Position numbers and translations under genes: made by a program
Notes under the pieces: generated by a model
Databases searched by the model: none
What the model was told of the DNA's origin: nothing
What the model saw: the letters and a program-made list of their open reading frames with translations, nothing else
DNA from: Planctomycetia bacterium
GTDB taxonomy: Bacteria; Planctomycetota; Phycisphaerae; FEN-1346
Length of the DNA: 42,054 bases
Reading direction: 5' to 3'
Assembly (NCBI GenBank): GCA_003170085.1
Contig: PMZT01000016.1
Span: 1 to 42,054, forward strand
Part shown: positions 9,692 through 35,400 of the stretch, piece after piece
Numbering within the stretch: position 1 is the stretch's first letter
How the letters are laid out: the number at the start of each line of letters is the position of its first letter

Positions 9692-9693
9692 GG

Positions 9694-9996: not shown

Positions 9997-10013
9997 TTAG
10001 ACATTATGTCTAA
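9997..10013. promoter_or_regulatory. Perfect palindrome, candidate HigA operator overlapping the higBA promoter
   Basis: TTAGACAT-T-ATGTCTAA (8-bp arms), abutting the higB GTG; a further TTTAGACA half-site at 10038-10045. Confidence 0.7.
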
Positions 10014-10031
10014 TTTTCGGCCTTCAGTCAA
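10003..10031 (-). promoter_or_regulatory. Candidate sigma70 promoter for higBA
   Basis: Minus strand TTGACT (10031-10026), 17 nt, CATAAT (10008-10003). Confidence 0.6.
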
Positions 10032-10105
10032 TCTCCATTTAGACAAAATGGCCAAACGGGCAAGAAACCCGGGCGTGGGGTGCGGGTCCACCCACTTTCG
10101 CGCCC

Positions 10106-10163
10106 TTCGCCGGGCGGCGTAACCCGTTTCTTTACTGTCACTTATGGTAGCCTCCGCGGTGTC
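10106..10163. repeat. Dispersed repeat copy 1
   Basis: GGCGTAACCCGTTTCTTTACTGTCACTTATGGTAGCCTCCGCGGTGTC, aligned with 37522-37568. Confidence 0.6.
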
Positions 10164-10399
10164 CTGCCGGATGGCATCCACGGATGGGCCCAGGGCCCGG
10201 GCCGCATCCTCGACGGCCAGGGCCGCCGGGTTCACGCGTTCGGTTGAAGTCAGGCTCTGCTCGGCCACGGGCGACCTCCCGGAATTATTGATGCTGGTCC
10301 ATCTTTTCGCCTTGATTCCTCGCCGCACACATGCCCTGATCCACATGACGTTGGAGAGCACGAAGGGCGAGGCTCTGCCGGGCGGACGGCAATACCGCC

Positions 10400-10690
10400 G
10401 TGGCAGGATGGGCAATCGCTTACAGCAGTTACGTTGATTACAGGAATGAGCATCGCGCGTCAGCCGGTCCGCTGATCATCCTCGGCCTGCTGCTGCCTTT
10501 CATCGTTATCGGCGGCGAGGTGTATAGGTACATGGACGGCGCCAAGAAGATCAGGTGCGTCCGCTGCCGTAACTGCGGCAAGGAGCATCCGCTCAAGGCA
10601 ATCTACAAGGCCGGCAGGTGCCCGGAATGCAACTCCAAGAAAATTGTCGGGGTCAAGCATGACGGAAGCGAGCTGACTCCACTGAGGTAG
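10400..10690 (+). CDS. Small membrane protein with C-terminal zinc ribbon
   Basis: One TM segment (GPLIILGLLLPFIVIGGEVYRY) followed by CRNC...CPEC pair; no family recognised. Confidence 0.4.
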   Translation: MAGWAIAYSSYVDYRNEHRASAGPLIILGLLLPFIVIGGEVYRYMDGAKKIRCVRCRNCGKEHPLKAIYKAGRCPECNSKKIVGVKHDGSELTPLR

Positions 10691-10843
10691 GGCTCTCGCC
10701 GTGGTTCGACTGCCTGTCGCCTTCCGCCTAAATTGCCGCCACGTCACGAGGTTCGTACCATCCGTTTTCGAGGAAGAGCCCCCCCCCCTCACGGATAGCG
10801 TCAAAACCGTCGGCTTTATAATCATCCGCGACAAATATTCACC

Positions 10844-11398
10844 ATGTCCTATCAGTTCGTGCGTGAGCCTTTGAACGCGGAGGAAACGGACCACCTGGTG
10901 AACGCGTGCCGCTCGTTCCAGGAAAAACTCGTCGTCTGGGTCCTCCTCGACACAGGCCTGCGGGTGCACGAGTTCTGCGGCCTGCGACGCGATCACGTGC
11001 AGTGGCAGGAAAACTGCCTGATCGTCTGGGGAAAGGGTGGCTGGTACGGCCACAAGGGTAAACGAAGGGTCGTTCCGCTTACCGCCAGGGCCAGGCGGTT
11101 GCTTGAGGTTCACTTCGTCACCAATGAAGGCATTGGTTTCTCAACCAGGACAGCCCAGAGGATTGTCAAGCGCGTCGCCAACAGGGCCATGATCACCAAG
11201 CCCGTGACGCCGCACACCTTGAGGCACACGTTCGCCGTGAATTGCGTGAAGCGGGGTGTGAGCACCGCGAGCCTCAAGAAGATCCTGGGCCACGACCGCC
11301 TGGAGACTACCGAGATCTACCTGAACATCTGCCCCGAGGACGCCCTGGGCGAGTTCTTTCAGAAGGTTGACGGTCGTGCACGTTCGAGATGGGACTGA
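10844..11398 (+). CDS. Minimal tyrosine recombinase/integrase (catalytic domain only)
   Basis: Catalytic set: TGLRVHEFCGL (R), WGKGG (K), HTLRHTF (HxxR), LGHDRLETTEIYLN (H/Y); no N-terminal core-binding domain. Confidence 0.85.
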   Translation: MSYQFVREPLNAEETDHLVNACRSFQEKLVVWVLLDTGLRVHEFCGLRRDHVQWQENCLIVWGKGGWYGHKGKRRVVPLTARARRLLEVHFVTNEGIGFSTRTAQRIVKRVANRAMITKPVTPHTLRHTFAVNCVKRGVSTASLKKILGHDRLETTEIYLNICPEDALGEFFQKVDGRARSRWD

Positions 11399-11459
11399 GA
11401 AACTACCTGCGGCTCTTCCTCGTTGCTGACCACGGCATCAAGCGTCGGCCACTGCCAAT

Positions 11460-11855
11460 TCAGGCTTCTTCCGAATCCAGCCCCGCGCCCGCTTCCCCCT
11501 TCCCCGGCCGCGCATCCGGATATTCGGACGCCGGAATTTGCACGACCTGTTTCCGCAAGGCGGGAGCATCTTCCGTAGCGGCCACCCAGACGATAGGCCA
11601 GTTGACGCTGAAATAGGCATGAACGGCAATGTTGCGGAAGGCCACAATGTCAGCCCATTCGATCTGGGGATGACGGTCCTTGAAATTCGCACTCAGCCGG
11701 GCGGCGGCTTCGCCGATCATGGCGAGTTTCTGAAGCACCGCACTACACACGAGGTCATCGCCCGTGAAGGCCTCCTCCTACACCTCTGCCACAAAGCCGG
11801 CGATGGCGTCGGCCGCCTCCACGATGTCGGCCAAGTACAGAACGTCACCCCGCAA
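11460..11855 (-). pseudogene. hepT: HepT-type toxin interrupted by in-frame TAG at codon 26
   Basis: Frame from TTG at 11855: MRGDVLYLADIVEAADAIAGFVAEV*EEAFTGDDLVCSAVLQKLAMIGEAAARLS...IEWADIVAFRNIAVHAYF; RX4HXY motif intact; TAG at 11780-11778. Confidence 0.75.
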
Positions 11856-12138
11856 AGAGCACCTCCGCCTCTGCCAGGACCTCGTCGCGTATCAGCGGCT
11901 TCAGACCATCCTGCGGCACAAGGTCCACCCGCCGGCCGAGAATCGAGGACAGTTCTCGAGCCATTCGCGCCAGCGCCAAAAAACCCACTCGCGCCTCAGC
12001 CTCAAACTGCACCAGCACATCCACATCGCTGTCAGGTCGGAAATCCTGCCGAAGCACTGAGCCGAACATCGCCAACCGCCGGACATAATGCTTCCGACAG
12101 AACGCGGCAATCTGCTCCTTGTTGACCGCTACGTTGAT
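11845..12138 (-). CDS. mntA: MntA-type minimal nucleotidyltransferase antitoxin
   Basis: FGSVLRQDFRPDSDVDVLVQF = GSX10DXD; overlaps hepT by 11 bp; alternative start 12156. Confidence 0.85.
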   Translation of the reverse strand: MNVAVNKEQIAAFCRKHYVRRLAMFGSVLRQDFRPDSDVDVLVQFEAEARVGFLALARMARELSSILGRRVDLVPQDGLKPLIRDEVLAEAEVLFAG

Positions 12139-12243
12139 CATCGGACTGCGCTCCATCCTTCCAAGACACTCCCATGTAAAACGATTATACCCCCGGCTTC
12201 CTCGAATGGCAACCCTCGATACGCCATGACGGCCGCGAAGTCC

Positions 12244-13318
12244 TCACGGCCCTTGCAGAACGTCGTTCCCGTCCCGCAATTCTATCCCCGGCCCCAACCG
12301 GAGCGTCCGTGCCAGCCTATCCCGGATACCGGCCGAAACAGCAACTACAATGACCTTGTTCATCCTGGCGTCCAGGCATTTCTGGACATTGGCCGCCGCA
12401 TCGGATTTTCCGGTCTCCACCTCAAGGGCAACCCGTTTACCATCTCGTTCGGCCACAAGGTCGATGGTCTTGCCGCCACCCACCGGGTATTCCTCGGTCA
12501 CATGGTAGCCGCTGGCCCTCAGGTGGTCGGCCAGCCGCTTCTTCCAATACCTGTGCTCTGGACCACCGAGTCTGTCCGCATCGGGTTCATCGATGCCGAG
12601 CGCCGCTTTCCCGGCGCCGGTCAGCGCCAGTACTTTGATTCTTGATCGACCGATTACGATCGGACAGGAAACAATAAGCGACTGCTTCAAGAGCATCTTT
12701 TGCAACCCCGTGCCCCGGCGAGGAGATAGACACAAAGAATGATAACGATCTGTGATCGTTGACGTTGGACGTTCCCAGACGTCCACCAGCAACTGCCTTT
12801 CCTGCGTTGTAAGCCGAATTGCGCACCCCTTTTCCCCATTTGATTTTTCATCTTTTCCTTTCACCGGAATCCCCGGAATCTCCTTGTCTTTCGATGGAAT
12901 CGGCACGGAATCTCCTTCTCGGCTGGAAATTGGTGAGGAAGAACTCTCCTGCCAACCTGTAACGACATCGTTGAACTCCACCGACGCGAGCAACCGGCGA
13001 TGGATATGTCCGTCAGTCACGCTTCCCTTCTTCAGCCGCACCAGCGGCAACTTGATCAGGAACGGGAAGAACCATCGGCCCTGGAGTTTGGCGATGGCCC
13101 AGCCGACCTCCAGGCGGTTGAGGTAGCCGGCCTGCTCGCTGTCCAGGTGCAGGCAGTCCTGGATCATGGAGATGTCGCCGCGGTGCTTGAGGTTGAAGGC
13201 GAATGTGGTGTAGGTGTTCCCCAGGGCGGGCTTCGAGATGAGGCTGGGGTGCTGGTCCAGGCAGATGACCGACTCGCCGAGTTCACGGATTTCACGCAGA
13301 AGGTTGGCCGCCGAACTC
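12244..13318 (-). pseudogene. 5'-truncated P-loop ATPase (VirD4/HerA/DUF87-like) remnant with C-terminal PD-(D/E)XK-like nuclease domain
   Basis: Frame extends upstream of M13167 as NLLREIRELGESVICLDQHPSLISKPALGNTYTTFAFNLKHRGDIS without Walker A region or start; C-terminus YPVGGGKTIDLVAERDGKRVALEVETGKSDAAANVQKCL. Confidence 0.6.
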
Positions 13319-13343
13319 GATCCTGGGACACGGGCTTGTCTGC

Positions 13344-13371
13344 TTGGCAGGCTTCCGCTGCGTGGTACAAT
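13344..13371 (+). promoter_or_regulatory. Candidate sigma70 promoter for the 13399 gene
   Basis: TTGGCA (13344-13349), 16 nt, TACAAT (13366-13371); GAGGAGG SD follows. Confidence 0.5.
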
Positions 13372-13398
13372 ACCGCACGACTCTGAGGAGGCACGGAG

Positions 13399-15014: not shown

Positions 15015-15437
15015 CATTCCTTATGGCGTCTACGACGTGACCCGCAACGAAGCCTGGGTCAGCGTAGGGATTGATCACGACACGGCCGAGTTTGCGGCCG
15101 CCGCCATCGGCCGCTGGTGGTCCAAGATGGGCCGGCCGCGATACCCCCTGGCCCGCGAGTTATACATCACTGCCGACGGGGGAGGCAGCAATGGCGCGCG
15201 CTGCCGGCTGTGGAAGGTCGCGCTGCAAAAGCTGGCGAACCGCACGGGCCTGCGGCTGGCGGTAAGCCACCTCCCGCCCGGCACCAGCAAATGGAACAAG
15301 ATCGAGCATCGTCTCTTCTGCCACATCACCCAGAACTGGCGCGGCCGACCACTCGTCAGCCACGACATCATCGTCAAACTGATCAGCAGCACCACCACGG
15401 CCCAGGGCTTGCACGTCCAGGCCGCCTTGGACCGCCG
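15007..15437 (+). mobile_element. ISAzo13-family transposase fragment (both ends missing)
   Basis: GKAIPYGVYDVTRNEAWVSVGIDHDTAEFAAAAIGRWW...ELYITADGGGSNGARCRLWKVALQKLANRTGLRLAVSHLPPGTSKWNKIEHRLFCHITQNWRGRPLVSHDIIVKLI. Confidence 0.85.
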
Positions 15438-16033
15438 CCACTAGCCGCGCTCGTGGCCAGCCACTGGACGCGCTCGGGCACATCCACGACCCGGTCGGCA
15501 GACACGGGATTCCGGTCGGGGCCGTGCCGCCAATGTGTCCACTCGTCAACGCCTTGGGGGCGCGGCTTGGTGGTCGCCGCGAACTTCTCGCCCTGCCGCA
15601 CGATCATCTCGCCGCCGGGCCGGAGAACGCGCAGACGTTCGGCCTCCGTGGCCTTGCCGGGGTCGATCACGATGAGGAGCGAGACGAGATTGTCGCCGTA
15701 AGGCAGCGTATCGGCATCCCATCGCTCGACGGACGCCCTGCCGTACAGCCTCTTTGCTGTGAGCGCCTGGCGTGCGGCGTCCACGCCGGCCGCATCGGCA
15801 AAGAGGCAATGAACGAGAAACGTGCCGTCCCTGGCAATGGCGGCGGCCGACTCGGCATCGGCCAAACCCAACACCACACACAGGCCGCCCTTGATGCGGG
15901 AGGCCTGGATCGCCTGCTCAGCCCACGCCTCGTCCCGAGCGGCTCCGCAGGCCACAAGTCCAAGCAGGATGCAAGCCACGGACGCTAGCAAGGCAACGAC
16001 GCGGTTCAACCTTCCCGGCCGCGTGTCGCGCAT
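15437..16033 (-). pseudogene. N-terminal fragment of a PQQ/beta-propeller protein with SAM-methyltransferase-like N-domain, truncated by the transposase fragment
   Basis: Signal peptide; GGLCVVLGLADAESAAAIARDGTFLVHCLFAD...GRASVERWDADTLPYGDNLVSLLIVID...ERLRVLRPGGEMIV...GVDEWTHWRHGPDRNPVSADRVVDVPERVQWLA; propeller missing. Confidence 0.65.
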
Positions 16034-16205: not shown

Positions 16206-17654
16206 ATGGTGCGACATGCAGCGATGGCGCGGACGGGGTTCGTGGCGGCGCTCGCGGTAGCGTCCGTTCTCGGCTATGCGGCATGCCTGGGGGCCGCCGA
16301 GGACAAGGTCGCGGCTGAGGGGCCGTTCCAGCCCACGTGGCAATCGCTCGAGGAGTATGAAGTGCCGGACTGGTTCCGCGACGGCAAGTTCGGCATCTTC
16401 GTGCACTGGGGGCCGCAGACGCTGGCCGGCGCCAAGGACGGCTCGGCCGACGGCACGAAGACCGGCAACTGGAAGGACTACGCCGTCGCCTTTCGCGGCG
16501 AAAAGTTCGACGCCGCGCACTGGGCCGAGATGTTCCGAAAGTCCGGCGCTAAGTACGTCGTGCAGGTGGCGGAGCACCACGACGGCTACGCGCTGTACGA
16601 CTCGAGCCTGACGCCATGGACTTCGGTCAAGATGGCGCCGAAGCGCGACTTCGTGGCCGAACTGGCCGCCGCCGTCCGCAAGGAGGGGCTGGTCTTCGGC
16701 GCATCATCTCACACCGAGGAGCACTGGTGGTTCTACTCCGACCCGCCCAAGAAGGCGCCGCCCGCGCCTCTGCCGGGCCGCCCTGTGCCGCCGCAACCCG
16801 ATAAGGAGTTCCTCGACTGGTGGTATGCGCGGCTGGTGGAGATCGTGGAGAAGTACCACCCGCAATTCATGTGGTTCGACTGGTGCATCGAGCAACCGGC
16901 CTATGAGCCGTACCTGCGCAAGTTTGCCGCATACTACTACAACCGCGCCGCCGAGTGGAAGCAGGGCGTGGTCATCAACTATAAGTACGAGGCCATGCCG
17001 ACAAAGGCCGCCGTGCTCGACATCTCGTGGAACACCAGCCGCTTTGCGTGGAAACCCGAGCGGATCAACCCCACCCCGTGGCAGTTCGACACCATGTCCA
17101 ACCGCAGTTACTGGTTCTGGCGGGCCGATATGCAGATGCGGCCGCTGGCCGAGATGATTTGCGAGATGGCCGACGTCGTCAGCAAGAACGGCAACTACCT
17201 GCTGAACTTCCCCCCGGCCCCCGACGGCACGCTGACGCCCGGCCAGGAAGAAGTCCTGCTCGGCATCGGCCGCTGGCTGAAGGTAAACGGCGAGGCGATC
17301 TATGGCACGCGGCCGTGGAAGGTCTTCGGCGAGGGTCCCACCGAGGGGCTCGGCCCGAAGTTCCAGGGCAATCCCCCCAAGACGCCCTGGACGCCGCAAG
17401 ACATCCGCTTCACGACGAAAGGCGATGCGCTTTACGCCATCGTGCTGGCGTGGCCGGAAGACCGGAAAGTGAACATCAGGTCGCTGGCCTCCGGATCGCC
17501 GCTCCTGCAGCGGGAGATCAAGGGCGTCAGCCTGCTGGGCTGTGACGCACCCGTTCAGTGGAAGCGCACCGCGGACGGCCTTGGCGTCGATCTCCCCGCG
17601 CAGCGGCCCTGCGACTACGCGTTCGTGCTGAAGATCGAGCAGCGTTCATTATAA
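16206..17654 (+). CDS. GH29 alpha-L-fucosidase, secreted
   Basis: VPDWFRDGKFGIFVHWGPQTLAG, GAKYVVQVAEHHDGYALYDSSLTPW, FMWFDWCIEQ (nucleophile region), VSKNGNYLLNFPPAPDG. Confidence 0.92.
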   Translation: MVRHAAMARTGFVAALAVASVLGYAACLGAAEDKVAAEGPFQPTWQSLEEYEVPDWFRDGKFGIFVHWGPQTLAGAKDGSADGTKTGNWKDYAVAFRGEKFDAAHWAEMFRKSGAKYVVQVAEHHDGYALYDSSLTPWTSVKMAPKRDFVAELAAAVRKEGLVFGASSHTEEHWWFYSDPPKKAPPAPLPGRPVPPQPDKEFLDWWYARLVEIVEKYHPQFMWFDWCIEQPAYEPYLRKFAAYYYNRAAEWKQGVVINYKYEAMPTKAAVLDISWNTSRFAWKPERINPTPWQFDTMSNRSYWFWRADMQMRPLAEMICEMADVVSKNGNYLLNFPPAPDGTLTPGQEEVLLGIGRWLKVNGEAIYGTRPWKVFGEGPTEGLGPKFQGNPPKTPWTPQDIRFTTKGDALYAIVLAWPEDRKVNIRSLASGSPLLQREIKGVSLLGCDAPVQWKRTADGLGVDLPAQRPCDYAFVLKIEQRSL

Positions 17655-17665
17655 AGGGCATCAAC

Positions 17666-19690
17666 ATGCGGATTACCCGTATCCTGAACATCTGCACGTT
17701 TCTCGTTTCGCTATGTCTCTTGTCTTTGGCTGGAGCCGGCATGGCATGGGGCGAACAAAGCATCTCCATCGACGGACAACGCGAGGGACGGCGGTTTGAC
17801 GGCATCGGCGCCGTCAGCGGCGGCGGGGCGACCTCCCGGCTGCTGATCGAATACCCCGAACCCGAGCGCAGCCGGATTCTGGATTATCTGTTCAAGCCGA
17901 ACTTCGGGGCCTCCCTGCAGGTGCTTTACGTGGAAATCGGCAGCGACAAGAACGGCACCCAGGGCTCCGAGCCCAGTCACGCCCGCAGCCGCGAAGAACT
18001 GGACCATCCCAGGCCCGAGTACTTCGAGAGGGGCTATGAATGGTGGCTGATGAAGGAGGCCAAGAAGCGGAATCCGGAGATCCGCTTCGACGCCACCGCC
18101 TGGAACTCTCCCCTATGGGTCGGCGTCGGAAGCGGCGGCTTCTGGTCGCAGGACATGTGCGACTATTACGTGGGGTGGATCAAGGGGGCCAAGACCTACC
18201 ACGGCCTGGACATCAACTACACCGGCTGCCGCAATGAGATGGGGGTCAACCTGCCGTGGATAAAGACGTACCGCAAGACGCTGGACAAGGCCGGCCTGAA
18301 CAACGTGATCATCCACGCCTTTGACAACTGGAGGCCGGAAAACAAATGGCTCTTCGCCAAGGAGTTCGCCACCGACGCGGACCTCAACAAGGCCGTCGGC
18401 ATCATAGGCAACCACGTGACCTGGAAAGGAGCGCCCGAAGGCGTGTCGCCTTCGCCGGACTATGTGCTCAAGAGCGGCAAGCCCATCTGGGACACGGAAG
18501 AGCACGTTTACCAGGACGGGTTCCCCTCGGCGATCAACAAGGTGCGGGCCTGCAACGAAAACTACATCGACAACCGGGTTTCCAGCACCGTCTTCTGGCA
18601 CCTGATCTCCGCCTTCTACGGCATTGAGGGCTGGTACGGCAAGCACGCGATGGCCATAGCCCCCTCGCCCTGGAGCGGCAATTACACCCTGATGCCGGAG
18701 TTGTGGGGCCATGCCCACACCTGCCAGTTCACCAAGATCGGCTGGACGTACCTGGAAGGCGAGGGGTGCGGGTACTTCAAGAATGGCGGCAGTTACGTCA
18801 CCTATAAATCTCCCAACGGCTCGGACTACACCATCGTCATCGAGACCAAAGGTGCAAAGGCCGATCAGGCCGTCACGTTCAATATCACCGGCGGCCTGTC
18901 CACCGGCAAAGTGTGCGTCTGGAAGAGCGACAAGGCCGCGATGTTCCAGAAGCAGGATGACATCACTCCGCAGAACGGAGCCATTGCCCTCACCCTCAAG
19001 CCCGAGTCCATTTACACGATCACCACAACGAGCGGGCAGCAGAAGGGCGATTATCCGGCACCGCCGGCTAACAAGCCTTTCCCCTTCCCCTACCACGAGA
19101 ACTACGACCACTATCGCAAGACGGGCGTGTTGCCCTACTACCATTCCGATATCCAGGGCGTGTTCGAGGTCGCCAACCGCCCGGACGGCAAGGGCAAGTG
19201 TGCGCAAGCGGTCGTCAAGTTCACCAACACCAAGACGGCCTTGGACGGATTCACGATCCTGGGCGATGCGACTTGGAAGGATTATCAGGTCAGCGTGGAT
19301 GTCTCGCTGGACAAGGACGGGGCGGCTGTTTTGCTGGGACGCGTGGCCGGAACCCGGGGCAAAACGACCAGAAGCCAAGGATACCTTTTGAAACTCGGCA
19401 AGGACGGCACCTGGACGCTGCTAGCCGAAGCCGAAACCCTCGCATCAGGCAAAGCCACGATTGCGGACCAACCCTGGCACAATCTGAAGTTCGTGTTCCA
19501 GGGGACAACGATCAAGGCGTCAATCGATGGCATAGAGGTGGCTTCCGTGACCAACGGCGCCTTTGCGGCAGGGATGGTCGGGCTGGGCACGTTTACCAGC
19601 GCTCCCTGCTTTGACAACCTGATTATCAGCGAGGTCAACGGGGCTGTGCCCCAACCGACGGTGTTCTCCCAGGATGGCGCACTACAATAG
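17666..19690 (+). CDS. GH59-like beta-galactosidase/galactocerebrosidase-like protein, secreted
   Basis: RRFDGIGAVSGGGATSRLLIEYPEPERSRILDYLFKPNFGASLQVLYVEIGSDKNGTQGSEPSHAR...; C-terminal jelly-roll domain; start chosen at MRITRILN. Confidence 0.85.
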   Translation: MRITRILNICTFLVSLCLLSLAGAGMAWGEQSISIDGQREGRRFDGIGAVSGGGATSRLLIEYPEPERSRILDYLFKPNFGASLQVLYVEIGSDKNGTQGSEPSHARSREELDHPRPEYFERGYEWWLMKEAKKRNPEIRFDATAWNSPLWVGVGSGGFWSQDMCDYYVGWIKGAKTYHGLDINYTGCRNEMGVNLPWIKTYRKTLDKAGLNNVIIHAFDNWRPENKWLFAKEFATDADLNKAVGIIGNHVTWKGAPEGVSPSPDYVLKSGKPIWDTEEHVYQDGFPSAINKVRACNENYIDNRVSSTVFWHLISAFYGIEGWYGKHAMAIAPSPWSGNYTLMPELWGHAHTCQFTKIGWTYLEGEGCGYFKNGGSYVTYKSPNGSDYTIVIETKGAKADQAVTFNITGGLSTGKVCVWKSDKAAMFQKQDDITPQNGAIALTLKPESIYTITTTSGQQKGDYPAPPANKPFPFPYHENYDHYRKTGVLPYYHSDIQGVFEVANRPDGKGKCAQAVVKFTNTKTALDGFTILGDATWKDYQVSVDVSLDKDGAAVLLGRVAGTRGKTTRSQGYLLKLGKDGTWTLLAEAETLASGKATIADQPWHNLKFVFQGTTIKASIDGIEVASVTNGAFAAGMVGLGTFTSAPCFDNLIISEVNGAVPQPTVFSQDGALQ

Positions 19691-19708
19691 GAACCGCGAG
19701 GGAGTAAA

Positions 19709-21712
19709 ATGACAGTGCATTCCTTGGCTGCAAGGCTGGCGGGCATCCTGGCGTCGCTCCTTATCTTCTGCGGCGGACTCTCCGCCCTGGGGGCGGAAAC
19801 GCTCCGGTCGCCCGACGGGAAAGTGATTGTGACCTTCGAGTTGAAGGAGGGGCGACCCTTCTGGGATGTCGCCTACAGCGGCAATCGCTTCATTCAACGC
19901 GGCCTGCTGGGGGTTGAAACCGCCCTGGAGAACTTCTGCGGAACCTACAAGGTCGTGGGCATGGAGACCGCCGCGCGCGACACCACGTGGAAGGCCGTCT
20001 GGGGAAACCTGAGCGAAATCCGGGACCACTTCAACCAGCTCGCCGTCAAGCTCCAGGAAACGGCCGGCAAGCAGCGCGTGCTGCATGTGGTCCTGCGCGC
20101 GTACAACGAGGGCGTCGGCTGCCGGTACGAGTTTCCGCCGCAACCCGGCCTCGCGGAAGTCACCGTCAAGAAGCGGTTGACCGAGTACCGGTTCGCCCAG
20201 AACTTCGCCGTCTACCAGAACCGGAACTACGAGTACGGCACGGTCAAGATCGATACCATGTCGAGGAGTGAAGGCGCCGTGACCCTGGACGTGGGCGGCG
20301 GCAACTTCGTTTCGCTGACCGATGCCGACCGCTCCAACTTCTCCATGGTCTTCTGGAGCAACCGCAAGGGGGACCCCAACACGATCGTGGGCGGCCTGGC
20401 CGGGCCGGCCTCCGGCGCGCTGCCTTTTGCGACCTCGTGGGAGGTAATCATCGTCGGCGAAACCCTCGGCAAGCTGTATGAGAACCGCTTCATCGTCGAG
20501 AACCTGAACCCGCCCTGCGCGATCGCCGACACATCGTGGATCAACCCCGGCCCCGCCATCTGCCAGATCCGCAACTCGCGGATGGTGACCGCCGAACTCA
20601 AGAAACTGCTCGACTTCGCCTCGGCCCACAACATCCCGTACATGGAGATCGACCACTCCTGGAACGGCGCGGAGACCAAGTGGACCCCACAGGAGATCGA
20701 GTTCTTCGAGAAGAACAAACTGCCCTTCTGGAACGACAAGCCGGAGTGGCGCAGCAACATCGGCGGAAACCCCATGGTCCCGGCCAAGGGCTGGGTCCCG
20801 TTCCGCCCGCAAGCCACGTCCGGCGGCAACTTTGTCGACCTCAACATCCCCGAGTTGACCGCCTACGGGAAGAGCCTGAAGCCCCCCGTCGGCGTTTGCG
20901 TTTACGTCCGTAGCGTGCTGCTGAAGGAATTCGGCGGCGAGCACCCCATCGATACGGTTTTCGCCGCGTACGAAAAGATGGGCCTGGCGGGCGTCAAGCC
21001 TGGATTCACACCCTCGGCCAGTCAATACAACGAGCAGATGGTTGCCTACATGGTCAAAAAAGCGGCGGAACACAAGCTCATCCTCACCATTCACGACGGC
21101 TACTATCCATACGGCCTATCGCGGACCTATCCGAACCTGGTCAACGTGGAAGGCGGCGCGGGCGACGAGGCGGAACACTCCATCAAGCCCGAGATGAAGT
21201 CCCTGCACGACGTGATGCTCGTCTTCACCCGCTTCCTGATGGGTCCGTTCGATTACACGCCCGAAATCGGCCGGAAGTCCAAGACCCACTGCCACCAGGT
21301 GGCGATGATCGGGGTGTACCACGGGCGCCCCAGCATCCGCGGGGGCATGCCGCAATGGTCGCCCGGCGGCGAAGGCGGCGGCGAAATCGAGTTCATCGAG
21401 AAGTGGCCGGGGATTTTCGATGAAATGAAAGTGACCGCCGAGGTCTGCGAATCGGTGACCGTGGCGCGACGCCGGGCGGGCAACTGGTACGTCGCCAGCA
21501 TGTCGGGGCCCCATGCCCGCTCGTATCCGTATCCCCTTGACTTCCTGACGCCGGGCAAGACCTACCAGGCGAGCATCTACAGCGACACGCCCGGAAGCCG
21601 GAAGTCCACGCATACGCAGCAAAAGGTGACCTCCCAAACGGTGATTCCAATCGCCATGGAACCCAACGGCGGCCACCTGATGATTCTCACTCTACAAGGG
21701 CAAACGCCATGA
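19709..21712 (+). CDS. GH97 glycoside hydrolase, secreted
   Basis: LRSPDGKVIVTFELKEGRPFWDVAYSGNRFIQRGLLG..., YEFPPQPG, IPYMEIDHSWNG, GVKPGFTPS...NEQMVAYMVKKAAEHKLILTIHDGYYP. Confidence 0.9.
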   Translation: MTVHSLAARLAGILASLLIFCGGLSALGAETLRSPDGKVIVTFELKEGRPFWDVAYSGNRFIQRGLLGVETALENFCGTYKVVGMETAARDTTWKAVWGNLSEIRDHFNQLAVKLQETAGKQRVLHVVLRAYNEGVGCRYEFPPQPGLAEVTVKKRLTEYRFAQNFAVYQNRNYEYGTVKIDTMSRSEGAVTLDVGGGNFVSLTDADRSNFSMVFWSNRKGDPNTIVGGLAGPASGALPFATSWEVIIVGETLGKLYENRFIVENLNPPCAIADTSWINPGPAICQIRNSRMVTAELKKLLDFASAHNIPYMEIDHSWNGAETKWTPQEIEFFEKNKLPFWNDKPEWRSNIGGNPMVPAKGWVPFRPQATSGGNFVDLNIPELTAYGKSLKPPVGVCVYVRSVLLKEFGGEHPIDTVFAAYEKMGLAGVKPGFTPSASQYNEQMVAYMVKKAAEHKLILTIHDGYYPYGLSRTYPNLVNVEGGAGDEAEHSIKPEMKSLHDVMLVFTRFLMGPFDYTPEIGRKSKTHCHQVAMIGVYHGRPSIRGGMPQWSPGGEGGGEIEFIEKWPGIFDEMKVTAEVCESVTVARRRAGNWYVASMSGPHARSYPYPLDFLTPGKTYQASIYSDTPGSRKSTHTQQKVTSQTVIPIAMEPNGGHLMILTLQGQTP

Positions 21713-23286
21713 GACACCTCTTCATTCTACTCGCGCTGCTCGCCGCCCGCCTGCCTGCGGCCGAGCCGAGCCTCGTCCCTGCCGCCCCCAGCACCGCGCC
21801 CGACTATTTCTGCACCTGGAACGTGCAGGGCTTCGCGTGCGGTTACGCCGGTCCGAGCCCGCAGGCGGACATGATGGTCGAGGCCGGCCTCTTTGGCCAG
21901 GGGCCGAACCAAGACTGGCTGGGGTTCTATCCCGACGTGCGGGCCGACCTGACCTTTCTTCTCGATGATGCCTTCGACTTTCCGCTGGGCGGCGGCCATA
22001 ACTGCCCCATCCGCGGCAGCGTGGAACTCGACCCCGGCCGCTTCCCCTCCTACCAGGGGAGCCCCGCCGAACGGCTGGCCAAGTTGAGCAAGGCTGTGAA
22101 AGCCAAGGGCTGGCGCGACCTGGGCCTATGGATCTGCAATTCCCGCCCGAATGTGGATGAGCTTCCAATAGACAGCGATACGTACTGGTGCCAGCGGCTG
22201 GCGTGGTCCCAGCAGGCGGGCATAGGCTCCTGGAAAGTGGATTGGGGCATCGGGATTCCCGGCAAGCCGCTGTGGAAATTCAAGGTCACCCCCAAGGTAC
22301 GCAGCGTAGCGCCTGACGTGTGGATCGAATTCGGCACCCAGGGCGACCTCTACCGCACCTATGACGTAAACATCTCGGTATCGATCCCCGAGACCATCTG
22401 GCGTATCGCAGCGTTTCTCGCCAAGCAGGACACCGAGGATCACCGCCTGATCAATTGCGAGGACGAAGTATACATCGGGGCGGGCCTGGGGTGTTCGTAC
22501 GGTGTGATGCGCCATCCGCTGAACGGGAACATGCCCAACGGCAAGCCGGACCCCTTCTTCCCTTCCCACTTCCGTGACGTCAAACACCGCATCGACGAGG
22601 TCACCCGGGCGGTCCGCTGGCACCGCATCGCCCTGCCTTTTGGCAAGGGCGACAAGGCCGTCATCGACGACAATATTCTTAGCGATTTCAAGAGCAAGCC
22701 CGCCCCGGCACGCATATCGCGCGGAGGGCTGCCTTTGCCCGCAGTGACCATGCCTGACGGCAAGGAGCCGCCCTACGTTCTCTGCTGCCGTCACCCCGAC
22801 GGAGAAATCGCGGTGGCGACCATTGCCAGAAACCTCGGTGACGGCAAGAAGGCAAGTCTCTCCTTCCCGCTGGCCGACGTCGTCCTGAATGTCGGCGAGT
22901 TGAACAGGCCCGTGGGCATCTTCGGCGAATATGCCAGCCTCACCCTGGTCACCACCAGCGCTCTGGCCGGCAAGCGCATCCTCGCCCAGGACCTGGCCGG
23001 AAAGACACCGGTGGACATCACCGGCGAGGTGACGGTGGACGGCAGCCGCCTCACGATCCCCGGTGCGGTCATCCACCGCGTCGGCCTGATGGCGGCAAAA
23101 TCCGGCGACATTTCGGACCCGGGGCTCGTGCTGGCCGTCGAAGGTCTCACCAGGTTTGTTCCCAAGCAACCGATGAAACCGGGCAAGAACCCTGACCGGC
23201 CCAAGCCCGTGACCGAAGCGGAGCCGGCCTCGACGTTCCCCAGCGCCGAGGCCCTCGCCAGGCAGGCGAAGGAAGACAAGAAATGA
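21709..23286 (+). CDS. Putative clan GH-D-like TIM-barrel glycoside hydrolase, family not assigned
   Basis: Signal peptide; WRDLGLWICNSRPN...GIGSWKVDWGIGIPGKPLWKFK with GH27/GH36/GH97-like K-x-D nucleophile context; 4-bp ATGA overlap with GH97. Confidence 0.55.
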   Translation: MRHLFILLALLAARLPAAEPSLVPAAPSTAPDYFCTWNVQGFACGYAGPSPQADMMVEAGLFGQGPNQDWLGFYPDVRADLTFLLDDAFDFPLGGGHNCPIRGSVELDPGRFPSYQGSPAERLAKLSKAVKAKGWRDLGLWICNSRPNVDELPIDSDTYWCQRLAWSQQAGIGSWKVDWGIGIPGKPLWKFKVTPKVRSVAPDVWIEFGTQGDLYRTYDVNISVSIPETIWRIAAFLAKQDTEDHRLINCEDEVYIGAGLGCSYGVMRHPLNGNMPNGKPDPFFPSHFRDVKHRIDEVTRAVRWHRIALPFGKGDKAVIDDNILSDFKSKPAPARISRGGLPLPAVTMPDGKEPPYVLCCRHPDGEIAVATIARNLGDGKKASLSFPLADVVLNVGELNRPVGIFGEYASLTLVTTSALAGKRILAQDLAGKTPVDITGEVTVDGSRLTIPGAVIHRVGLMAAKSGDISDPGLVLAVEGLTRFVPKQPMKPGKNPDRPKPVTEAEPASTFPSAEALARQAKEDKK

Positions 23287-26200
23287 TAACGAGAACGATA
23301 CTGACGGCGGCGCTTCTGGCCGCGTGCTGCGCGGCTGCGCAGGCGGGGGCGGCCGTGCCCGTCACGGTGGTCAACTACTCCAGAATGCCCGTCTACGCGA
23401 CGGCCATCGCTCTCGATGAAAAGGACCTCTGCGGCCGCCTGGGCCTGCCCGAAGGCACGCCGCTGCGGGTCCGCACCGCCAATGCGGCGCCGGCTATACC
23501 GATAGCGCGCGGCACGGAGGACGGCCGGCCGGTCATGAGGCTGTACGTGAGCCTTGCGCCAACGTCGCGGCTGGACCTCGTGGCCGAGCGGGCCGAACGG
23601 TGGCAGGAGGCCAAGGTCGCGGAGGCGGCGTGCAACCCGGCCGATGCCAGCGGCGCCATCGCCAACGGCGTCCTGTGCGTGACGTTCGGCAAGAAGGGCT
23701 GGGACCTGGCCTTCGCTCCACCGGCGGCGGACGGCGACAAGGCGAAGGCCGACAAGAACGTTCTCATCCAGAACGGGGCGCTGGACTTCTGGATCGACAA
23801 CCAGAACCGCGGCCGCATCATGAACGCCGATCCCAAGGACATGGGCCTCGTGCGATTCGCCACGGCTGCACGCCTTGAAAAGTGCGAGGCGGCGGTTGGG
23901 CCGGACGGCCGCCCGATGTTCAAGACCGTGCGCCGGCTCGACGGTTTCGCCAAGGCCATGACCGTTACGGAAACCTTCGAGCTAATCCCCGGCCTGCCCA
24001 TCCTCATCTCGCGCGTGCGGTGGCAGAATGACGGCGACGCGCCGCTGTGGGTGGCGTACGTGGGCAGCGGCGACGGCGTCAAAGGCTCGTGGGCGAAAGG
24101 CCTGATGACCGGGCCGCTCATCGAGCGGAAGAAGTCGCCGCTCCAGGGCGATATCAACGGCGGCGAGACGCGCTGCGCATGGATCGGGCAAGTCTGCCGC
24201 ATTAGCATGGAGTCGCCCGCGACGGGTTGCGGCGTAGGCCTGTCGACGATCCTGCCGGGCCTGAACAAGGTGGGCACGGGCTCGATGATCTGGGGATGCA
24301 GCGGCTCCGGGTTCCAGTGCAACTTTATCGACCCGACGTACGGCCAGTTCCCGTTCCTCGTAAAGCCGCACGAGGGGCTCGATAACGGCTTCGCATTCCT
24401 CGCCACGCAAACGGGCACGAGTGTGTTCCGCCAGACCGTGGAGCTATGGACAACCATCCAGGCGGGCAAGCTGCCGCGCCTGGCGTCGCCGTGCGCGGTA
24501 TTCGTCGGCGGGGAGCCGGTGTACGCCCAGACGGTCTCGGGGCTTGGCGACGATGCCGCCACGCAAGGGCTGCTTGCGGCGGGCGGGCCGGTCAGCCGGA
24601 TACCCCTGCGGATGGACTTCAACAAGTACTTCGAGTTGCGGGCGTCGGTCCAAGCCGCCTCGCCGCAGGCGGCGGTCGAGGTCGTTGCGCGGCCGATGGT
24701 CCCCGGCAAGGCGCCTATCCCCCTGCTTCGGGCCGAGAAGCCGGGCGAGTACAAGGTGGACCTCAACAAGTGTTTCGGTAAACCCGACGAAGTCGCCTTC
24801 GTGCTGGAGGTGAAAGCGAGCGGGGCGGCGGCGCTCAAGGCCCTCTCGATCGCCGAAATCCTGCCGGTCGCGCCGGAACTGCTCTCGCCTGTGCCGGACG
24901 CCTCGATGACCGACCTTGCGGCCATGTTCCGCTGGAAGGCGATTCCGATGGTCGTCGATTACGATCTCCAGATGTCGCGGGCGGCGGACTTCTCCTCGCC
25001 CACCGACGTGCGGGTCGCGAGCAGCCAGGAATTCCCGTGGTACCTCGTGCCCGACGACAAACTGCCCGCGCCCGGCCGCTGGTACTACCGTATCCGCGGC
25101 GTCAAAGGCGACGTGCTGGGCCAGTGGTCCGAGCCGCGAAGTTTCACCGTCAACAACGACCACTCGACCAAGCCGCCGAAGCGGCCCGTGACCGCCGAGA
25201 AGCCGCTCTTTACGCTCGAGGCCACGCGGGTCCTCGATTACACCACGTTTCACCCCGACGTGCCGGCCGACATCGCCCCGTACGTCGGCATCATCGCCGA
25301 GGGTTTCGAGGGCAAGGGCCTCCCCGTGACCGACTTCGCGCGCGGCATGGACAAACTGCCGCACGCCATCATGCTTCGCAGCCACTGGGTGGGCCTGGCC
25401 GACCTGGAGTGGCTCTTCCAGAACGTGCCGAACTTCGTCGGCATCCAGGGCGGCGAACACCTGAGCGATCTGTATCAGAACGGGAAGGACGGGGCCACGA
25501 CTTACGCCCACCGCCTCACCCGCCTGTGCGCCAAGTACGGCATGATCTACCAGGAGGCCGACGGCACGTACAAGGATGACAAGTGGCAGGACCTGATGGA
25601 CAAGCAGGGCCCGTTCGTCCGCGAGTACGGACGGTACCTGGTGCTGTCGCAGAAGAACAACATTATTCGCCGCCAGTTCTACTCGCAGAGTGCCGCAATG
25701 GGCCTCTGGCTGGGTGGCATCACGCACCAGCACGGCGCGTGGGAGGACGGCGGCTTCTACTGGCAGAACGCGGGCTTTAACGGACTGGGCAAGTGCGCGG
25801 GCGAGCGGAGTGGGGTCCTCAAGACCATGCCGCGCATCTTCTGGGACCTGGTGTTCGTGATGGGCATCAGCCGGGGTTGCGGCATATACAGTTGCGACGG
25901 CCAGACGCTCATGATCAGCCCGAAGGAGGTCGAACGGAATCCGGCCGCCGCGTTCCAAGCGGGCATCTGGGACTCAAGCGGCAAGACCACCGACACGTTC
26001 AAGCGGTTCGTCGCGCCGCTCATCCGCGGCACGGTCCAGCACGGCCTCATCCCCACAAAGGAGCAGGTGCTGGCCAACGTCCACCTGGCGGTCTTCAACG
26101 ATAAGAAAGTGCCCGGCGACAGCAAGGCCTGGCCGCACTACATGGAGTACGGGCCGCTGTACGCCGCCACCTACGGCTTCCGCAAGATGGGCAACATCGA

Positions 26201-26738
26201 CGGGCAACTGTGGGAGTTCTTCCCGAACACAGGGCGGTACTACTACATTCCCGTGCTCGTCCAGGGCAACGAGCCGCTGGGGCCGGCGGTCAAGAACCTG
26301 CCCGTCTCCCAGTTGCAGGACACGGCGCAGGTGAAGAAGGTGTTTGACGCCGCGTACTCGAAGTGGTACGAGGGCGACGCACTGGTGTGCCTTGTCGGCG
26401 ACACGCTGACGGTCCTCAACTCGAATGAGAACGAGGACGTGACGGAGTCGTATTCCGTGCCCTTGAAGCGCGGCTGGCTGGCGAATCTTTCCGGCAAGGT
26501 TGGGCCGCATGCGTACCTCGTCGGCAAGTTCGAGGACCGCAGCCGCCGGTTGTGGCTCCAGGCGAACACCGATTATCCGGAGCGCGACACCGAACTCTCG
26601 ATCACCTGCGAACGCAAGCCGGAGTGGCAGATCGAGCCGGCATCGGCGGCGAAGGAAGCCCGGTGGGATGAGGCCGCGAAGTGCCTGAAACTCCGCCTCT
26701 CGCACAGGGATGGCGCGGTGGAAGTGACTGTAAAATGA
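23283..26738 (+). CDS. Large secreted GH98-like protein with central Fn3-type module
   Basis: Signal peptide; [39 protein letters not shown]...[21 protein letters not shown] (Fn3-like); C-terminal [10 protein letters not shown]...[19 protein letters not shown] resembling GH98 C-domain; ATGA overlaps on both sides. Confidence 0.55.
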
Positions 26739-29104
26739 GAATCAGCCGAAGAGAATTCATGGCAATCGGCGGCGCCGCGATTGCGGGGACGGCGATTGGC
26801 GCCGTGGCATCCGACAAGCCGGCCGAAACGCCCGGTTCTAGCGCTACAGGCGCGACGCCGGCGGCAGACGCACCCAATGCGATGCTGCTCTGGTACCGCC
26901 AGCCCGCCGCCAACTGGAACGAGGCCCTGCCGGTCGGTAACGGCCGCCTGGGCGGCATGGTCTTCGGGGGCGTCAAGTCGGAACTCGTCCAACTCAACGA
27001 GGACAGCGTGTGGTCGGGCCAGCGGTACTACATCGAGAAGCCCGAGGCGCGCGAGAACCTGCCTCAGGTACGCCAACTCCTCTTCGACGGCAAACTCTCG
27101 GAGGCCCAGGCGCTGGTCGAGAAGTTCATGACCACCAAGCCCGACCCGCATTACGGCAGCTACCAGCCGCTCGGCGACCTGCGCATCACTTTCGAAAAAC
27201 TCGATGGCGAGGTTGCCGATTACCGCCGCCAACTTGACCTCGACACGGCCGTCGCCCGCACCTCGTTTGTGGTTGACGGCGCGCGGCACACCCGCGAGGT
27301 GTTCGCCAGCGCCGCAGACCAGGTGCTCGTGGTGCGGCTGACGTGCGAGCGGCCCGGACGCATCTCGGCCAAGGTGGAACTCACGCGGCAGGCGGAGGCC
27401 GAGATTCGCGCGGCAGGCAACAACGAACTCATCCTCGGCGGGCAGTGCCCCGAGGGCGGCAGCGTCTTCCGCGCGTATCTCAGGGCGACGACCGAACGCG
27501 GCAAAGTGTCGACCTCCGATAGCGCGCTGCGGATCGAGAACGCCGACGCCGCAACGCTCGTCCTGGCTGCCAACACGAACTTCTACAGACCCGACCCCGA
27601 CCGTCTCTGCCGCGAGCAGATTGACCGGGCCGCAGCCAAGCCGTTCGCACGGCTGCTCGATGCCCACGTGGCTGACTACCAGTCGTTTTTCCGCCGCGTG
27701 GACATCGACCTGGGCCGGACCGACGCCGCCGCGCTCCCCACCGACGAGCGTCTGAGTCGCATCAAGACCGCCGGCGGCGACCCGCAACTCGAGGCCCTGT
27801 TCTTCCAGTACGGGCGGTACCTGCTCATCTCTTCGTCGCGGCCGGGCAGCCTGCCGGCAAACCTCCAAGGCATCTGGAACCCGCTCACGAAGCCCCCGTG
27901 GTTCAGCGATTACACGATCAACATCAACGCCGAGATGAACTACTGGCCGGCCGAGGTCACGAACCTCTCCGAGTGCCACCAGCCGCTCATCGACTTCATC
28001 GAGTCGCTGCGCGAGCCCGCCCGCCGCGCGGCCAAGGAGCGATACGGCTGCCGCGGGACCACCCTCAGCACGCGCACCACGCCGTGGGGCGCAAGCGACC
28101 TCCGCGGCAGCGCCGGCCTCCTGTGGCAAGACGGCATGGCATGGCTCTCCACGCATCTCTGGGAACACTACGCCTTTACGCAGGACCGCAAGTTCCTGGC
28201 CGAGCGGGCGTACCCAGCGATGAAGGAGGCTGCGGAGTTCTACGTCGACTTCCTCGTGGAGCACCCCACACGCAAGTGGCTGGTCGCCGGCCCGTCAACG
28301 TCGCCGGAAAACACGTACATCGCGCCGGACGGCAAGAAACTGGCGGTGGACATGGGCCCCGCGATGACCATGCAGATCGTCCGCGACATCTTCACGCGCT
28401 GCATCGAGGCGAGCGAGATCCTGGGCATCGACGCCGATTCCCGCCGGACGCTCATCGCCAAACGCGACAAACTCGCACCCATGCGCATCGGCGGCGACGG
28501 CCGGCTGCTGGAGTGGTCCGAGGAATACAAGGAAGCTGACCCCGCCCATCGCCACGTCTCGCACCTGTACGGCCTGTACCCGGCGAACCTGATCACGCCG
28601 CGCGGCACGCCGGACCTTGCGGCCGCCGCCAGGAAGTCGCTGGAGGGCCGCGGCGACGGCGGCACCGGCTGGAGCAAGGCTTGGAAGATCAACCTCTGGG
28701 CGCGCTTGCTGGACGGCGACCACGCACGCAAACTCCTCGTGGAGGCGCTCGCCGGCAACACGTATCCGAATCTTTTTGATGCGCACCCGCCGTTCCAGAT
28801 CGACGGCAACTTCGGCGCCACTGCCGCCGTGGCCGAGATGCTCGTACAATCGCACACCGGCGAGGTAGAACTGCTGCCGGCGCTGCCTGCGGCGTGGCCG
28901 GATGGGCATGTGAGCGGCCTGCGGGCGCGCGGGGGATGGGTGGTGGACATCCAGTGGCAAGGCGGCCGACTTCAGCAGGCGACCCTGCGGGCAAGCGTTG
29001 GCGGCAAGTGCAAGGTCCGCTACAATCAGACCGTCATGGAACTGTCTTTGGCAGCCAACGAAGTCCGCGTTCTGGACGCAAGCCTGCAGCCCGCCGGGAA
29101 CTGA
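26735..29104 (+). CDS. GH95 alpha-L-fucosidase, Tat-type signal
   Basis: [115 protein letters not shown]. Confidence 0.95.
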
Positions 29105-31865: not shown

Positions 31866-32095
31866 TCACTTGGCGGGCAGCGGCGCCTTCACGGGGGCCT
31901 CGTCGACCCACCCCGTCATCGCGCCCTTTTCTCTGTTTGCCCAGGCGTAGTACGGCACGGCAGTCAGCGTGACCGGGCGATGGCCTTCAGCCAGGGCGCT
32001 GCCTTGGAGGACGGTCACGCCGCCCAGCAGCCCCGCGCGATGCCGCACCCCATGGGGGACCGGCAACTCCGGCCATCCAGGGTGCCCCCTTGAAT
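31866..32095 (-). pseudogene. C-terminal fossil of a GH127-like beta-L-arabinofuranosidase
   Basis: GLLGGVTVLQGSALAEGHRPVTLTAVPYYAWANREKGAMTGWV is the characteristic C-terminal segment of GH127 proteins; catalytic body absent. Confidence 0.55.
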
Positions 32096-32248
32096 GATCA
32101 TGTACTTGTGTAGCCCCGTCGCGATCTCCTCGACGCGAGACTTCTCCACGTCGGCAGGACGGGTGTTGGCTGACCAGGGCTTCAAGGCAGCGTCTGCGCC
32201 AGTGACTGCCGGGAGGGTCGCCAGCATGAGAAGCAGCATAGGGTGCAT
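32015..32248 (-). pseudogene. N-terminal fragment with signal peptide, body missing
   Basis: MHPMLLLMLATLPAVTGADAALKPWSANTRPADVEKSRVEEIATGLHKYMIIQGG then runs out of frame into the GH127 fossil. Confidence 0.4.
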
Positions 32249-32421
32249 CGCATGGGCTCCTGTACGGTGTAGTGCTCGCGTGCCTGCCGGAACCCCAGGC
32301 GTTCGGCGGCCCGAGCGCACAGACCCCATGCTTTAACCTCACGCAAGCCAACGCGATTCCCTCAATCCGGCGACGACGTTCGCGTCTGCCGCTGTGACGT
32401 ATCCCCGTCGGATTCCCCGCC

Positions 32422-35400
32422 TTGACAAGTCGCACCGACGGAATGAAGATATGGTTGGCGAAACGGGAACTTGAGAGGGAACCCATGAGACGATGTCGAA
32501 TCGCGATGGCGCTCGGGCTCGCGATGGTGCTCGGCCTGGCGGTGGCACTCCTGGCCCTAAGCGAGGTGCGTGGCGGCACGGCGGGGCGGGTGGACCCGGA
32601 GACGCTGCGCACGCCGGTTTACAGCCCCGAAGGGAATGCGATCGTGCGGCATAACGGGGACCGGTTCAACAACCGGCCGCTGTACTGCAACCAGACGAGC
32701 GCGATCGTCGTCGCGGGCGACCGGCCGCTGATCCGTTTCGGCAATGGGTCGGTGCTGAACGGCACCTTTATGGCGGCGCTCGTGCGCGGGAATAAGGCCA
32801 AGTGGCTGCACGACTGGTCGGACATCACGTCGAAGTACCGCCCGGATCGCATGGAATGGACGCTCAAGGACGGCGGGTTCGGGGCGACGGTGCTGACGCT
32901 CGACACCGTGCCGCCGGCCGACGGCGCGGGCATGGCGGTGCGGCTGCGGATCGAGAACGCGGAGGCCGGCGACCGCCTGATCTGGGTCTGCGGCGGCGCG
33001 GTCCAGCAGAAGGAGAGCATGCTGGGCGCGTGGGACGTGACGACCGCCGGGCGCCAGAAGACGCTCACGCGCGGATTCTTGCCCGACGAGTGCCGCGACA
33101 ACCTCGTGACGGTCAGCGGCGATCAGTTTATCGTGCAGCCCACCGCCGGCAAGTCGGTCGGCGTCGCGGTGGGGCGCTGCAGCGCCGCCGCCAAGATCAC
33201 TATCGCCGATGCCGGGGCCTGGGCGGACCCGCTGAAACTGTCGGCCAGTTCCGGTAAAGATGCGCCGCTGGCGTGCGCCATAGTGAACCTCGACGGCCAG
33301 CGGGAACTCTACTGGGCGATGCAAGGTTTCCGGAGCATCAAGGCGGGCAGCACGCCGCGCGTGCCGCCGGCGGCCGAGGTGTTCGCTGCGGGGCTGAAGC
33401 GGGCCGAGGAGATCGGAAACCGCGTGGTGGTCGAGACGCCCGACCCGCGCCTCAACGCCCTGGTGGCGGCGTCGAATGCGGTGATGGACGGGGTGTTCCG
33501 CGACGGGGTGTTCACGCACTCGGGCATGCGCTGGGGCGTGCCGCTGCTGGGCTGGCGCTCGATCTACGGCGGCACGGCCTACGGCTGGCATGATCGCGTC
33601 ATGACCGAGGCCCGCACCTGCCTGGCCAAGCAGATCACCGAGTCCGACAAGACGCGCCCGGTAGCCGATCCGAAGGTGGGTCTGGCGTGCCAGTCGCTCG
33701 AGTCGCGCCTGTTCGGCAAAGGCCGCGTGAACGCCTTTCATACGTGGCATTATGATATGCAGAGCCAGTTCTTCGACGAGCTCATCCACGCCTGGCGCTG
33801 GACCGGCGACCCGGAGCTGGAAAAGATGCTGCGCCCGGCGCTGGAACTGCACCTGGAATACATCCACGATTGTTTCGATCCCGACGACGACGGCCTGTAC
33901 GAGAGCTATGCCAACACATGGCCGACCGACAATCAGTGGTACAACGGCGGCGGCACGGCGGAGGAGACGGCGTACGCGTACGCCGCCCACAAGGCCGCCC
34001 TCGAACTGGCCCGCCGCGCCGGCGACGAGGCGGCCGCCAAACGGCACGAGGCGCGGCTGACGAAGATCCGCAAGGCCTTTCTGGAGAAGCTGTGGATTCC
34101 GTCCAAAGGGTACGTCGGCTCCTATGTCGAACAGGGCGGCCACGCGCGCCTGCACGAGGACTCATGGCTATACGCGATCTTCTGCCCCATCGACGCCGGA
34201 ATGCTCGACGCCGGCCAGGCGGCGCGGGCGCTGTACTACACCGAGTGGGGCCTGGAACGCGAGACCATGCCCTACGGCGGCCAGCGCTGCTGGACCTCCA
34301 ACTGGGTGCCGTCGGTCTGGTCGCTGCGCGAGATGTGGCCCGGCGACAACTACGGCTTGGCGCTGGCGTACTTCCAGACCGGGCTGGCCGACGACGGCTG
34401 GGCGGTGCTGCGCGGGACGTTTCCGCACATGGCGTTTTTCGGCCCCGTCCCCGGCGACCTGGGCTTCCCCAACGGCGGCACGGACTTCAGCGATTGCACG
34501 AGTCCGTTCTGCCGGACGGTGGTGGAGGGCCTGTTCGGTTACCGGCCGGATTATCCGAACGGGGTGGTGACGATCGCGCCGCAGTTGCCTTCCGACTGGG
34601 AGCACGCCTCGATCAAGACGCCGGATTTCTCGCTGGAGGCCGGACGGACGAAATATCGCATTGAACTCACCCGCCCCGCGGCGCTCGACCTGCGCCTGCC
34701 CGTGCGAGCCCGGAAGCTCGCCGCTGTGACGGTCAACGGCCAGCCGGCAAAATGGGAACTGCTGCCCGGTTTCGGTTGCAGCGTGGCGAAGATCGCGGTG
34801 CCGAAGGGCAAGTCCGTAACTGTCGAACTAACCTGCGAGCAGCCGCTGCCGCAGTATGCGGCCGTGGCGGTGGAGACCACGGTGGGCGCGAAACCGGATC
34901 TGACGGTCAAGGACGCCCGGATTATCGAACCGGCCGTGCCGCCGTCAACCGCCGGGTATCACCTGGTGGAGGCGCTGGTGCAGGTGGGCGACGCGCCGCA
35001 GCGGCGGCTGTTCAAGATCAAGGTGAACGATCCCAAGGCCGACGCCGCGCTGGCTGCGCGGGTCTTTGAGAAGGCGCCGGCGAATGCGCGGTGGGAATGT
35101 GTCGATATGTCGCGGCAGTTCAACGGCGACATCCGCACGATCTTCCAGCAGCAGTACCTTTCGCCGCGTCCGGACACCTGTTCCTTGCGGCTGGCGACCA
35201 ACGGTTACTCCACCTGGCAGATGAGTCTGGGCGGGAACCCCAAGGTGCCGGTGATCGACCAGGCCCAAGTGCCTGCGCTCCTGGAAGGCGTATCGCGCCT
35301 GCGTACGCCGCAGGGGGTTCCGTTCGCGTGGCCCGGCGGCGAGCGCAACATCGCGTTCACGTCGATGTGGGACAACTGGCCTCGGCAGGTCGCCGTGCCG

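Follow-up and report, generated by a model that had tools for sequence, protein, structure and literature searches.

The window analysed here, a stretch of 42,054 nucleotides, is one entire contig of a genome of the class Phycisphaerae (4.47 Mb in 313 contigs, 88.9% complete). Six uninterrupted open reading frames, P0001 to P0006, lie on its forward strand:

16206..17654, forward strand: P0001, GH29, predicted exo-α-L-fucosidase/L-galactosidase type (Pfam, PDB matches)
17666..19690, forward strand: P0002, GH59, predicted β-galactosidase (Pfam, alignment with GALC structures)
19709..21712, forward strand: P0003, GH97 of the KXG(Y/F) + HD outlier group (Pfam, motifs)
21709..23286, forward strand: P0004, unassigned clan GH-D-like glycosidase (47-sequence alignment, AF2 model)
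23283..26738, forward strand: P0005, GH98-like endo-glycosidase (PDB sequence matches, fold, residues)
26735..29104, forward strand: P0006, GH95, predicted α-L-fucosidase/L-galactosidase (Pfam, XacAfc95 match)

The layout described in an initial annotation of this DNA proved exact: all six genes point in one direction, with spacings from P0001 to P0006 of 11, 18, -4, -4 and -4 bases, the three negative values being ATGA overlaps at 21709, 23283 and 26735. Most of the six starts are preceded by purine-rich, Shine-Dalgarno-like stretches, as judged by eye, and a consensus scan of the forward strand found no terminator-like site between the six genes, the first on that strand lying at 29503. An N-terminal hydrophobic stretch can be read in each of the six proteins, and the N-terminus of P0006 contains a twin-arginine motif (SRREFM), so that all six are apparently exported.

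The surroundings of the operon contain the following elements:

9263-9895, reverse strand: Cro/C1-type helix-turn-helix protein
10844..11398, forward strand: tyrosine recombinase of the phage-integrase family, upstream context (PF00589, 1.8e-26)
15040..15441, forward strand: ISAzo13/Rhodopirellula-type transposase, C-terminal remnant (PF07592, 6.5e-60, profile positions 144-275 of 308)

The transposase remnant is directly upstream of the operon, as context outside it, and is enclosed by two opposite-strand gene fragments with no Pfam match; the stretch around the recombinase and the Cro/C1-type gene has few other recognisable genes. At the far end of the window, an open reading frame cut by the contig end (41368-42054) combines a match to Mutator-type transposase with a PKD domain. 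Just downstream of the operon, 32422-35781 encodes a 1119-residue protein with a DUF4450 and a GH116-type region, likely a further glycosidase, and the reverse-strand frame 31866-32612 has a C-terminal GH127 match of just 26 residues and is possibly a gene fragment; GH127 also occurs in two related loci discussed below, L022 and L037. A DUF6259 protein is encoded at 4283-6475, and a relative of it in L065 adjoins a distant P0004 homologue (26% identity).

HMM searches place four of the enzymes securely, in GH29, GH59, GH97 and GH95, each Pfam match lying far above cut-off. P0001 matches GH29 with E = 1.8e-76; its closest PDB matches are the fucosidase 7snk and the exo-α-L-galactosidase 7ljj, and it has a putative Asp nucleophile, D225, in the motif WFDW. 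P0002 matches GH59 (E = 2.6e-93) and aligns along its whole length with the structures of mammalian galactocerebrosidase (GALC; E = 1.5e-95), the NE and SSED motifs being aligned and both catalytic Glu, E191 and E278, kept. P0006 matches GH95 (E = 3.4e-178), is closest in the PDB to XacAfc95 (7kmq, E = 1.7e-213), and has T394, N396, N398 and the acid E525 at the catalytic positions, which agrees with the Asn pair and acid Glu of GH95 (PMC4491172, PMC8245568). The Thr/His position was abandoned as a guide to specificity in GH95, since XacAfc95 has Thr there yet prefers fucose (PMC8245568). GH29 and GH95 had initially been described as fucosidase families; both also include L-galactosidases.

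The GH97 protein P0003 is an unusual member of its family. Its Pfam matches (E = 5.5e-39 and 1.3e-38) have the N-terminal, catalytic and C-terminal domains all over cut-off. Retaining GH97 enzymes carry (K/M)(I/V)DF with HG and inverting ones HHET with HE, and six outliers carry KXG(Y/F), mostly with HD, and have neither base nor nucleophile; Gloster et al. (2008) considered these either inactive or differently catalytic (PMC2670981), and the outlier type corresponds to subfamily 97e (PMC1249566). P0003 has KPGF and HD, with G432 at the position of the retaining nucleophile, T434 at that of the inverting base, D463 replacing the HE/HG residue and E487 at the acid. It fails the motifs of the retaining α-galactosidases, represented by 3a24 with Asp in the G432 column, and equally those of the inverting α-glucosidases, having T434 in the base column and D463 in place of HE. 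The GH97 structure 5e1q also has Gly in the G432 column, presumably as an engineered mutant. By its motifs P0003 thus belongs to the published outlier group without both known catalytic bases, and it may be inactive. As P0003 has neither a retaining nucleophile nor an inverting base, the α-galactosidase or α-glucosidase role first proposed for it is unsupported; the initial annotation had said that its pathway would fall if HMM assignment led to unrelated specificities, and the GH97 result goes part of the way there. The GH97 copies in the planctomycete loci L022 and L024 have the same residues at G432, D463 and E487, and distant GH97 proteins of Planctomycetota in L106 (G727), L107 (G716) and L108 (G513) have KFGF and HD, residues by which the nucleophile-less group is present elsewhere in this phylum too. 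A scan of viral contigs with P0003 gave no matches.

P0004 has no match in Pfam or NCBIfam, and among 47 members of its family that were scanned none has a Pfam glycosidase match, save for the GH97 half of one fusion. A PDB sequence search with P0004 alone returned just a DARPin, by chance, and with the 47-row family profile the best glycosidase match was a GH36 galactosidase, weakly, at E = 0.81. The AF2 model (pLDDT 90) has its best fold matches in GH27 (E = 4.7e-9), with modest TM-scores of 0.34-0.47. Residues K176, D178, E207, R216, Y218 and D219 are invariant in 47/47 aligned members, and D86 and R268 are likewise invariant; D178 (in WKxD) is the candidate nucleophile and D219 (in RTYD) the candidate acid/base. 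P0004 looks clan GH-D-like, as first suggested, because its model matches GH27 best and because of the invariant K-x-D and R-x-x-D; it is predicted to be a barrel of the GH27/GH36 kind in which Asp serves both as nucleophile and as acid/base, and its mechanism is probably retaining. Judged against Pfam and NCBIfam, this looks like an undescribed family of clan GH-D, which CAZy may already number; a literature search for a new clan GH-D family found none. Fifty relatives (50 bacterial loci) occur in named genomes of Planctomycetota, Verrucomicrobiota, Lentisphaerae, Kiritimatiellota, Bacteroidota, Armatimonadota, Acidobacteriota and Bacillota, and a structural search against viral models gave no match at E<=0.001.

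P0005 reaches neither of the Pfam GH98 cut-offs, scoring 18.8 bits where 23 are required and 20.2 where 25 are (E about 0.001), and a homologue in the Lentisphaerae contig L037, 29% identical to it, passes at 34.4 bits. The GH98-like call nevertheless stands: in a PDB sequence search the closest match is pneumococcal Sp4GH98 (E = 2.5e-9), and when a model of residues 540-1151, built from eight sequences with a pLDDT of 70, was submitted to Foldseek, the 27 best PDB matches were all GH98, with E down to 1.5e-27, among them blood-group endo-galactosidases and a Bacteroides ovatus GH98 endo-xylanase (2.6e-26). E725, invariant in the alignment, is at the acid position, and D822 and D872 occupy the base columns. 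A broken base dyad was considered and rejected, the family alignment placing D872 in the base column. Published GH98 catalytic residues are Glu361 and Asp467 (PMC4491172). On the strength of the model, P0005 is a divergent GH98 whose catalytic half has the GH98 fold. The N-terminal 500 or so residues (23355-24850) match no Pfam family, are conserved in L022 and L024 and are absent from shorter GH98 relatives. A search of the organism's own genome with the Pfam GH98 model gave no match, the controls being equally silent. The chain that P0005 cuts is not readable from sequence: the family contains not only the endo-β-galactosidases named initially but also an endo-xylanase (PMC4491172), so a galactan backbone does not follow.

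The initial annotation had suggested looking for this gene set in related genomes, and parts of it do recur. In planctomycete L022 the homologues of P0004, P0003 and P0005 (79, 69 and 52% identity) are adjacent, the order being GH127, P0004 homologue, GH98-like and GH97. In planctomycete L024 they are neighbours (73, 66 and 62% identity), with the GH98-like gene followed by a P0004 homologue fused with GH97 in one 1168-codon open reading frame (9878-13381). Next to the module, neither L022 nor L024 gave any homologue of the window's fucosidases, so fucose is perhaps peripheral. Among 392 sampled Planctomycetota genomes (the window's own included), only one other has close homologues of both the GH97 and the GH98-like gene, there adjacent. 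The Lentisphaerae contig L037 groups GH59 (85%), GH29 (68%), a P0004 homologue, GH98, GH35, GH127 and esterases; its P0004 copy (9938-10855) lacks, in frame, residues about 211-403, D219 among them, and is either a decayed gene or an assembly error. Bacteroidota homologues of P0004 adjoin GH43, GH97, GH115, GH28, GH2 and SusD. In the tree of the P0004 family the window copy groups, with full support, with those of two planctomycetes and two Verrucomicrobiota, a Chthoniobacter copy being nested inside, and other Phycisphaerae copies fall elsewhere. Taken with the window's recombinase and transposase pieces, this favours horizontal spread, which we regard as likely, although contigs may have been misplaced in these metagenome bins.

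The Bacteroidota neighbours, and the GH127 and GH35 genes of closer relatives, point to a plant or algal cell-wall glycan, arabinogalactan- or pectin-like, and the best-supported substrate, though not an established one, is a glycan of plants or algae that carries fucose and is rich in galactose. We would give an even chance to the proposal that the operon is one transcription unit encoding six exported glycosidases for one such polysaccharide, bearing fucose (or L-galactose) and galactose and probably arabinogalactan-like. The GH98-type enzyme P0005 would cut the main chain; GH95 and GH29 would remove terminal α-L-fucose or L-galactose; P0004 would remove an α-D-galactose or β-L-arabinopyranose cap by retaining double displacement, with D178 as nucleophile and D219 as acid/base; GH59 would remove β-galactose; and P0003 would act, by whatever mechanism, on a side chain shared with P0004. 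The core of P0004, GH97 and GH98-like genes would be a mobile module passed between lineages. Possible, if on balance doubtful, is the further idea that P0004 founds a new clan GH-D family, that its constant and once fused GH97 partner is active by a third catalytic arrangement, and that the two form with the divergent GH98 a mobile module of three enzymes directed at a single unusual set of linkages. Of the pathway first proposed for the operon, what survives is a set of coupled, apparently exported glycosidases, two from fucosidase families and one a GH98-type endo-enzyme, several of them clustered elsewhere; the specificities had been over-read.

Three other explanations deserve consideration. 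The window holds a tyrosine recombinase and two pieces of transposase, and relatives share only subsets of the genes in differing order, which would suit a loosely selected set of debranching enzymes in a mobile island, serving several glycans and not one pathway; we think this explanation unlikely in view of the three consecutive four-base overlaps, the three-gene core that stays together despite reordering, and the gene fusion. The strongest rival substrate is highly decorated glucurono-arabinoxylan of the corn type, on which P0005 would serve as endo-xylanase, GH95 and GH29 would remove L-galactose, and GH97 or P0004 would remove α-D-galactose. B. ovatus PUL-XylL does unite a GH95 L-galactosidase, a GH97 α-galactosidase and a GH98 endo-xylanase (PMC4491172), whose fold the P0005 model matches, but the operon has none of the classic xylan families (GH10, GH30_8, GH43, GH67, GH115), no role on xylan is known for GH59, relatives carry GH35 and GH59, and P0005 is nearest in sequence to the pneumococcal GH98 in a search whose matches did not include the xylanase; corn-type xylan is distinctly unlikely on this evidence. 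Breakdown of a blood-group H/B or mucin-type glycan, one of the options proposed initially, is very improbable: GH98, GH95 and GH29 do include enzymes for such glycans, and Sp4GH98 is the closest PDB match of P0005, but no hexosaminidase, sialidase, GH109 or GH110 was recognised among the window frames scanned, nothing else points there, and the relatives' neighbours (GH127, GH35, GH43, GH115, GH28) are of plant or algal type.

The operon links three poorly understood enzymes: a clan-D-like family outside Pfam, an enigmatic GH97 group and a divergent GH98. Their natural linkage, and in one case fusion, provides what tests of them had lacked: a partner for each enzyme and a few substrates to try. 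The operon also suggests that a module for glycan degradation moves between Planctomycetota and other phyla.

Each of the three can be set beside known enzymes. P0004 shares the barrel fold and the K-x-D ... R-x(2,3)-D pattern with GH27 and other clan GH-D α-galactosidases and β-L-arabinopyranosidases, but differs from GH27/GH36 in its R-x-x-D spacing and in that its sequence does not significantly match their entries in Pfam or the PDB (best E = 0.81). P0003 resembles the 97e-type outliers in motifs and missing bases (PMC2670981, PMC1249566), but lies in a three-member subclade, 67-71% identical, tied to the clan-D partner, and has N173 at the Glu194-equivalent position, where the outliers have Gln and the alignment is loose. 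P0005 shares fold and acid/base positions with Sp4GH98 of Streptococcus pneumoniae, but is only 17% identical to it, has the long N-terminal region and bears Asp, not Glu, at one base position (D872). A literature search for a system combining GH98, GH59 and GH97 found none. Unlike a Bacteroidota-type PUL, the operon has next to it no SusC/SusD pair, nor another transporter, that a Pfam scan of window frames could recognise; elsewhere the genome encodes two TonB-dependent receptors. The genome also has a fucose-isomerase-family protein and a galactokinase, which speak for the proposed pathway. The operon is like PUL-XylL, the corn glucurono-arabinoxylan locus, in holding GH95, GH97 and GH98 together (PMC4491172); unlike the operon, PUL-XylL has GH31, the families typical of xylan breakdown and transport proteins of Bacteroidota, with no GH59 mentioned, and its GH97 enzyme is an active α-galactosidase.
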